A stretch of 64,000 bases of DNA, taken from Gammaproteobacteria bacterium. Its GTDB lineage: Bacteria; Pseudomonadota; Gammaproteobacteria; Chromatiales; Chromatiaceae. The stretch covers positions 1 to 64,000 of the forward strand of contig JASBTJ010000039.1 in NCBI GenBank assembly GCA_030148485.1. Direction: 5' to 3'. Under the pieces are notes generated by a model that had not been told where the DNA came from, did no database searches, and saw only the letters and a program-made list of their open reading frames with translations. The first letter of the stretch is position 1. Every line of letters begins with the position of its first letter. Of the stretch, positions 60,544 through 61,694 are shown piece by piece. The translations under genes were made by a program, and so were the position numbers.

Positions 60544-61104
60544 TCAGACCGCGCCCCAGGCCTCACGCTTGGCATCGGTGGTATTGGCCAGCGCCGCCTC
60601 CAACGCCACCATGGGGTACTTGGGCTGGTAGGCTTGCAGCTCCCGATACACGGTCAGCACCTTGTCGGCCGCGGGTTGTCCCTTGAAGTCGCTCTTTTCC
60701 AGTGCCAGCTCGTCGATGATCTCGTTCCAGGGCACGCCCTGTACGAGCGGAATCAGTACGAAGGTCACGCCGTCCAGCGCGACCTGTACCGGTTCCTTGA
60801 GATTGACCACATACAAGACGGCCTTCATGTGTGGCGAGAAGTCGTCGCTGTACTTGTCCGCCAGGGTGGTCAGTGAGGTGACTTCATCGACGGCACCGAT
60901 CAATAGTTCGATCTTCTCACCGCCAAGCAATACCGCACCGCGCAGGACTTCCACCGGTGGCTTGGTATGCCCCTTGGCATCGGCGACGCCACCTTCGATT
61001 AGTACCAGTTCGCCACGATAGGCGGTCATGCCGGCTTCGCTCGTGGCGGTCAGGAAATTGGTGTTGAACAGCAGGCCCTCGGCCTTGAATCGTTCCAGCG
61101 GCAT
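60544..61104 (-). CDS. Unrecognised 186-aa protein under probable NifA/sigma-54 control
   Basis: 186 residues from MPLERFKAEGLLFNTNF, with GAGG six bases before the ATG; a 19-codon upstream extension would cross its own promoter. No signal peptide, membrane helix or cysteine motif. It is a soluble acidic protein with beta-rich N-terminal half (VEVLRGAVLLGGEKIELLIG) and an alpha-helical C-terminal half (KVLTVYRELQAYQPKYPMVA). I do not recognise a family. A sigma-54 promoter (61143-61160) and a TGT-N10-ACA site (61225-61240) lie upstream, placing it in the nitrogen-fixation regulon, between hupC and the nif genes. Confidence 0.8.
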   Translation of the reverse strand: MPLERFKAEGLLFNTNFLTATSEAGMTAYRGELVLIEGGVADAKGHTKPPVEVLRGAVLLGGEKIELLIGAVDEVTSLTTLADKYSDDFSPHMKAVLYVVNLKEPVQVALDGVTFVLIPLVQGVPWNEIIDELALEKSDFKGQPAADKVLTVYRELQAYQPKYPMVALEAALANTTDAKREAWGAV

Positions 61105-61142
61105 ATCAACCTCATTAAGGTGTGGGATGGATACGCCGGGCT

Positions 61143-61160
61143 GAAGCAGCAATTGTGCCA
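61143..61160 (-). promoter_or_regulatory. Sigma-54 promoter of the 186-aa gene
   Basis: On the minus strand TGGCACAATTGCTGCT has GG (61159-61158) and GC (61147-61146) ten bases apart. The -24 box is a full TGGCAC; the -12 box is CTGCT. The predicted start is about 30 bases before the ATG at 61104. Confidence 0.7.
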
Positions 61161-61224
61161 CGCCATCGGGACGCGCTGACCGCTTCCATACAAGGTATAG
61201 GCGGTGCCGGACACGCGTCGCTTG

Positions 61225-61240
61225 TGTGGTATCCGCGACA
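61225..61240. promoter_or_regulatory. NifA upstream activator site (TGT-N10-ACA) for the 186-aa gene
   Basis: TGT (61225-61227), ten bases, ACA (61238-61240), the NifA-binding consensus. It is 65 bases upstream of the -24 element of the promoter at 61143-61160, a normal enhancer distance. Confidence 0.6.
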
Positions 61241-61273: not shown

Positions 61274-61531
61274 TCAGTTGAGGTCTGCAGGTTTCAGTTC
61301 CTCCGGCCAGCAGCCGGTGGGAGGTCCCAGTTCCCCGCCGTTTTTTTCGAAGCGCACCAGGAACAGGGTCTTGGCCGGGTTTTCCTCGAGATGGCCGACG
61401 TTGATGATCACGCCACGGTCCCCGGGCTCGGCGATGAGACTGTCTTCGGCAAGTGCCGGATGGCTGCCGTCGTTACGTATGGCGGTGGCGGCGAACACCA
61501 TGTCGCCGGGTTCCAGTTGTCGGATATCCAA
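61274..61531 (-). CDS. nifZ: NifZ-domain protein
   Basis: 85 residues from a TTG start with GAGGAA seven bases upstream. The NifZ-type pattern is seen: LEPGDMVFAATAIRNDGSHP, then EPGDRGVIINVGHLEENPAK and TLFLVRFEKNGGELGPP, a small beta domain. NifZ aids maturation of the nitrogenase P-cluster. It is on the minus strand, head to head with iscA-nifUS (213 bases apart) and upstream of the 186-aa gene, which has its own promoter. No sigma-54 element is seen directly upstream, though the NifA site at 61601-61616 lies 70 bases before it. Confidence 0.78.
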   Translation of the reverse strand: MDIRQLEPGDMVFAATAIRNDGSHPALAEDSLIAEPGDRGVIINVGHLEENPAKTLFLVRFEKNGGELGPPTGCWPEELKPADLN

Positions 61532-61600: not shown

Positions 61601-61616
61601 TGTGCCGATCCCTACA
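61601..61616. promoter_or_regulatory. NifA upstream activator site for iscA-nifUS
   Basis: TGT (61601-61603), ten bases, ACA (61614-61616), about 100 bases before the predicted start of transcription. Confidence 0.65.
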
Positions 61617-61678: not shown

Positions 61679-61694
61679 TGGCATAGGCCTTGCT
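61679..61694 (+). promoter_or_regulatory. Sigma-54 promoter of iscA-nifU-nifS
   Basis: TGGCATAGGCCTTGCT: GG (61680-61681) and GC (61692-61693) with ten bases between, and a consensus TTGCT -12 box. The start of transcription should be near 61705, 40 bases before iscA. Confidence 0.85.

Follow-up and report, generated by a model that had tools for sequence, protein, structure and literature searches.

A small protein family of diazotrophic Pseudomonadota, very probably an undescribed NifA/sigma-54-controlled accessory of nitrogen fixation

A 186-aa ORF in the window, i.e., the 64,000-nt stretch of DNA analyzed here, belongs to an unnamed protein family that is almost certainly a genuine, previously undescribed accessory of nitrogen fixation under NifA/sigma-54 control. 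An undescribed nif component of this kind had been the core claim of a preliminary description of the window, and it is supported by the co-occurrence of the family with nif genes, by a conserved pair of upstream regulatory sites, and by nifA-mutant data for homologues. Few bacterial regulons have been studied as well as that of nif, which is being transferred to crops and other hosts, and the accessory and protective side of nitrogen fixation is the weakest part of engineered systems. We found no description of the family in the open-access literature searched, Pfam, NCBIfam, or PDB. None of these sources yielded a name, a profile, a solved fold, or a mutant for it, though its members in Paraburkholderia phymatum top the NifA dependence quantified on the symbiotic plasmid. 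The gene is directly testable in ordinary laboratory diazotrophs.

The window gene is flanked by HupE and a hydrogenase b-type cytochrome gene on one side, and by a NifZ-domain ORF, an IscA/HesB-type ORF, nifU, and nifS on the other, which agrees with its earlier placement between the uptake hydrogenase and nifUS. Sequence searches of Pfam, NCBIfam, and PDB with the window protein and the family alignment returned no significant match, and the curated Pfam and NCBIfam profiles of NifW, NifZ, NifT, NafY, and other catalogued families did not match the window protein, consistent with the initial impression that it falls in no recognized family. The predicted product is small and probably located in the cytosol, and no cofactor is evident. 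The NifZ-domain ORF (85 aa, 61274–61531, minus strand) lies just upstream on the same strand; it matches Pfam PF04319 (E 5.7e-12) and no NCBIfam family.

Upstream of the window gene, we identified the elements expected of a NifA/sigma-54 regulon member, namely a −24/−12 promoter with GG-N10-GC spacing at a plausible distance and a TGT-N10-ACA palindrome at enhancer distance (Table 1). The −24 element is perfect, while the −12 element, CTGCT, is one base off TTGCW. The ORF, a leader of ~30 nt, the GAGG, and the palindrome had all been located beforehand as we find them; the GG-N10-GC of the sigma-54 site had also been recognized correctly, but the range then assigned to it (61143–61160) exceeds the motif by two bases. 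Using fixed criteria (sigma-54 score of at least 25 at −75 to −40, and TGT-N10-ACA at −200 to −90), dinucleotide shuffles of the window upstream region (n = 4000) yielded the promoter in 0.65% of cases and the enhancer in 1.7%, but never the two together (0/4000), in line with the earlier estimate that their chance co-occurrence would be uncommon. Similarly, both elements occurred in none of the shuffles of all family upstreams (n = 10,500), while they were present in 11 of the 35 actual family upstreams vs 10/414 other neighboring genes, the latter scored with a wider promoter window since their starts are less certain. The IscA/HesB-nifUS operon (start 61745, plus strand) has its own TGT-N10-ACA and sigma-54 site (TGGCAT-N5-TTGCT), at 61601–61616 and 61679–61694.

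Table 1 Features of the window gene and its upstream region
Feature	Position	Strand	Basis and remarks
186-aa ORF	60544..61104	minus	Start ATG at 61104; member of an unnamed nif-associated protein family
Ribosome-binding site GAGG	61110..61113	minus	5 bases before the ATG; sequence
Sigma-54 promoter TGGCAC-AATTG-CTGCT, TGGCACAATTGCTGCT	61145..61160	minus	Exact GG-N10-GC; −53 to −76 in many homologues; shuffles
NifA upstream activator site TGT-N10-ACA, TGTCGCGGATACCACA	61225..61240	minus	Sequence; conserved in homologues (about −135 to −185)

Homologues of the window protein were detected in 34/210 genomes of the window's order. A profile built from these identified the family in 11/369 genomes of a class-wide sample, and a profile extended with distant members in 13/398 genomes of a phylum-wide sample, both counts including the window's own genome. 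A distant subfamily II, with the C terminus ENRPV, is encoded on symbiotic plasmids of Paraburkholderia, Cupriavidus, and Bradyrhizobium as well as on a Methylococcus plasmid. Its members are always annotated in the database as “hypothetical protein”; the plasmid search gave no match with the window protein as query and needed a subfamily II query. Carriers of the family occur among alpha-, beta-, and gammaproteobacterial diazotrophs and include soybean and mimosa symbionts. Across 58 members, R30, G31, and K141 are invariant and P50, G70, N101, K137, D139, and K148 nearly so, while the dN/dS ratios of the pairs tested (0.06–0.30) indicate purifying selection. Conserved Cys or His ligands such as those of Fe-S or metal-carrier proteins were not found among these 58 members: no His is conserved, one column contains Cys in 23/58, and any Cys or His column is occupied in fewer than half of the members. 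A match in a Bacilli MAG (L003) was rejected, as the family profile finds nothing there, and azo0536 of Azoarcus BH72, which has NifA and RpoN sites and lies downstream of draT, is a possible member that was left out of the family counts. One homologue (G091, L049:10001–10563) is split into two frames by a frameshift or assembly error.

AlphaFold predicted the window protein with a pLDDT of 92.8 and a pTM of 0.88, and a subfamily II member with values of 91.8 and 0.87. The two models show one compact predicted fold, with the same order of four N-terminal strands, a helix, three strands, and C-terminal helices. Foldseek comparisons of both models to the PDB, and of the window protein model to viral models, gave no match below E 0.001 and TM-scores of ~0.3 or less, so that at this sensitivity the fold is not represented among solved structures. 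The top fold-library match, McrC of McrBC (E 0.005 and 0.02), resembles the models weakly and locally, with a TM-score of ~0.3 that indicates a different fold. The sensitive profile and structure-based searches proposed in the preliminary description thus matched neither a Pfam or NCBIfam family nor a solved fold.

The family is closely tied to nitrogen fixation. In the order, nifD was detected in 33/34 carriers (for G187 as the end of the gene only, at a contig edge); it was also present in 11/11 carriers of the class sample, in which 38/369 genomes have any nifD match, and in the 12/12 further carriers of the phylum sample. The associated Fisher p-values are ~1e-12 for the order and ~4e-12 for the class, a precision that is overstated because related genomes are not independent. 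Scattering of homologues among genomes without nif, named earlier as the outcome that would count against a nif role, was thus not seen, and the family is confined to diazotrophs with one exception, G132 (92% complete), in which two copies, one partial, were found with neither nifD nor a true nifH above the cut-off. Either this MAG is incomplete or the gene persists there as a remnant of lost nif genes: in its genus the gene can be located away from the nif cluster, with a Dus gene on one side and a substrate-binding-protein gene on the other, a position in which nif loss would spare it. About two thirds of the nif-positive genomes in the order, including nif-positive species congeneric with carriers, do not have the gene, which is accordingly accessory and conditional rather than essential.

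Next, we evaluated regulation across homologues. Homologues with different neighbors again have the NifA site, at about −135 to −185, together with the sigma-54 site, at about −53 to −76, i.e., in the Dus/PBP position (L040–L044), before nifE (L045, L048), beside a CCG-domain Fe-S gene (L002, L047, L068), elsewhere (L050, L070), and outside the class (L098–L101). No such pair was found upstream of L029–L035, where the gene is located toward the end of a nifHDKT operon. Several purple-sulfur-type copies (L020, L023, L053, L055) have a TGT-N10-ACA palindrome at −100 to −120, and a recognizable canonical GG-N10-GC sigma-54 promoter was not found in these upstreams.

Published nifA-mutant data confirm NifA control for homologues. 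In P. phymatum, BPHY_RS38250 (Bphy_7752) is divergent from nifH and a second copy, BPHY_RS38505 (Bphy_7807), from a second nifH. In PMC8305402, nifA bacteroids display log2FC values of −11.54 and −11.11 for these two genes, respectively, and of −10.05 for nifD and −7.40 for nifH; the two homologues represent the largest quantified drops among the symbiotic-plasmid genes tabulated there, some of which have no value. In B. diazoefficiens, bll1754, an orthologue by synteny only, is flanked by the Rieske gene blr1753 and by blr1755, an arrangement shared by the family gene in L080 and L102. PMC4926349 gives it a log2 change of −4.8 in nifA nodules and lists no value for it in nifH nodules. PMC6515984 reports an increase of log2 6.2 for its protein in microoxia and of 121-fold for its transcript in bacteroids; the gene is absent from an older NifA+RpoN list cited there, as are nifS, nifT, and nifW. 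The accessible passages of these three papers list the gene without discussion and do not connect the species, and to that extent the expression data have never been linked to the family before. All three genes are NifA-dependent and induced in nodules or bacteroids in these sources; Bphy_7752 and Bphy_7807 belong to the family by sequence. Unlike the window protein, to which they are ~20–25% identical, all three belong to subfamily II, and in the papers found they appear only as “hypothetical protein” and are unstudied.

Gene neighborhoods were variable, with a recognized nif or dra gene within 4 kb in 22/40 lineages and none recognized in 18/40. Several strings of close same-strand genes are operon-like: the order is family gene-draT-draG, with overlapping neighboring genes, in L096 (f108), and ArsC-trHb-family gene-draT-draG in L075 (f92), both divergent from nifH, while the family gene follows draT-SIR2-hemerythrin in L046 and L049 (g39, g55) and SIR2-hemerythrin in L068. 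A Rieske ferredoxin gene is a same-strand partner in L030, L034, L035, L073, and L081, a Rieske gene adjoins the family gene in Chromatiaceae-like genomes and Bradyrhizobium, and Methylococcus encodes truncated haemoglobin-family gene-Rieske. ArsC/nifO is also among the neighbors. In other genomes the gene precedes nifEN (L045, L048), lies between hesB-nifS and a nifENX block (Bradyrhizobium), or is near nifB/nifQ (alphaproteobacteria). Hemerythrin, Rieske, SIR2, and NifQ labels derive from Pfam matches of representatives and database annotation, and draT from Pfam PF07357. In the window's genome, a draT-SIR2-hemerythrin operon lies beside nifH without a family gene at its end (L038:6652–9352; G000:C90 ~89.6–92.4 kb); given the arrangement in L046, L049, and L068, the family gene may have moved in this genome.

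The draT/draG, hemerythrin, truncated haemoglobin, Rieske ferredoxin, and ArsC/nifO neighbors favor a role in nitrogenase protection or post-translational control through protein binding, which is our best guess from gene neighborhoods and one we hold with moderate confidence. This argument is one of guilt by association and singles out no partner. Conservation and, for homologues, the nifA-mutant data place the gene in the NifA/sigma-54 regulon of diazotrophic Pseudomonadota, and its product would be made only while nitrogenase is made. Under our hypothesis, the product may directly bind either nitrogenase itself, through NifH or NifDK, or the DraT/DraG and oxygen/redox partners of the enzyme, and such binding would protect or hold nitrogenase during shifts in oxygen, redox state, or ammonium. 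The protein would act as a conditional accessory that nitrogen fixation as such does not require. More speculatively, and with doubts clearly outweighing confidence, this nitrogenase-binding protein with a new fold might make protection of nitrogenase reversible by coupling it to the oxygen/redox-sensing partners hemerythrin, truncated haemoglobin, and Rieske ferredoxin, and/or to DraT/DraG; it would then be a widespread second system beside the FeSII-type protection of Azotobacter.

Counting against protection or control, the nifE/N, nifB, and hesB/nifUS neighbors would suit cofactor assembly, and the main rival is accordingly a maturation accessory of the nitrogenase metalloclusters, i.e., a chaperone-like Fe-S supply or FeMo-cofactor assembly helper with a role comparable to NifW, NifZ, or NafY. 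This possibility is a serious one, if distinctly less probable than our best guess: the window gene sits beside a NifZ-domain ORF and hesB-nifUS, similar nif contexts recur in other lineages, and NifW, NifZ, and NifT likewise act without being enzymes of the pathway. However, the family lacks conserved Cys/His ligands, its absence from most diazotrophs of the order places it outside a core pathway, and the genes that repeatedly accompany it in close operons are draT/draG and those of oxygen/redox proteins. These partners could instead denote a dedicated component of the DraT/DraG switch-off, e.g., an adaptor targeting DraT or DraG, as the gene strings of L096, L075, L046, and L049 might suggest. 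We consider this unlikely, since strict co-occurrence with DraT was not observed: of the 22 carriers outside the order, 10 have no DraT, among them the two genomes sampled from the Bradyrhizobium-like genus g420, so that the role must be broader and a Dra-specific one is excluded as the sole one. Nearly all diazotrophs of the order have DraT, which is not true of the family gene, and for the same reason DraT is uninformative as a discriminator between carriers and non-carriers there.

Hydrogen recycling with the neighboring uptake hydrogenase had been suggested from the window, where the b-type cytochrome gene is convergent on the opposite strand, with ~60 bases separating its end from that of the ORF. 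Among 80 nif-positive genomes of the order, however, the [NiFe] hydrogenase small subunit is present in 32/33 carriers vs 44/47 non-carriers and thus does not discriminate between them, no hydrogenase structural gene was recognized beside the family gene in the other contexts examined, and the window gene's own promoter faces the other way, making this role highly improbable. Among the functions first envisaged, protection or control therefore fits the neighborhoods best and cofactor work is possible, while hydrogen recycling is without specific support. Finally, a housekeeping or unrelated gene with promoter-like sites by chance might be invoked from the imperfect −12 element and the frequency of single short motifs in any genome, yet it is barely conceivable given that no shuffle had both sites, that both are kept at similar distances in other contexts, that the family is near-perfectly confined to diazotrophs, and that nifA-mutant data exist for homologues.

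Like the family, NifW, NifT, and NifZ are small, nif-linked, not universally required, and without an enzymatic role, but no Pfam or NCBIfam match connects them to it and no solved fold is similar. The DraT/DraG system shares operon-like gene strings with the family in several lineages, but is not homologous to it, and the family occurs in genomes without DraT. Another uncharacterized nif-linked family, with no Pfam or NCBIfam match, is represented by a ~320-aa protein (L029:6601–7896, minus strand; homologues in L002, L026, L030–L035, and L038), which is conserved in nif operons, where its gene follows LRV/DUF6129 or immediately precedes nifE.
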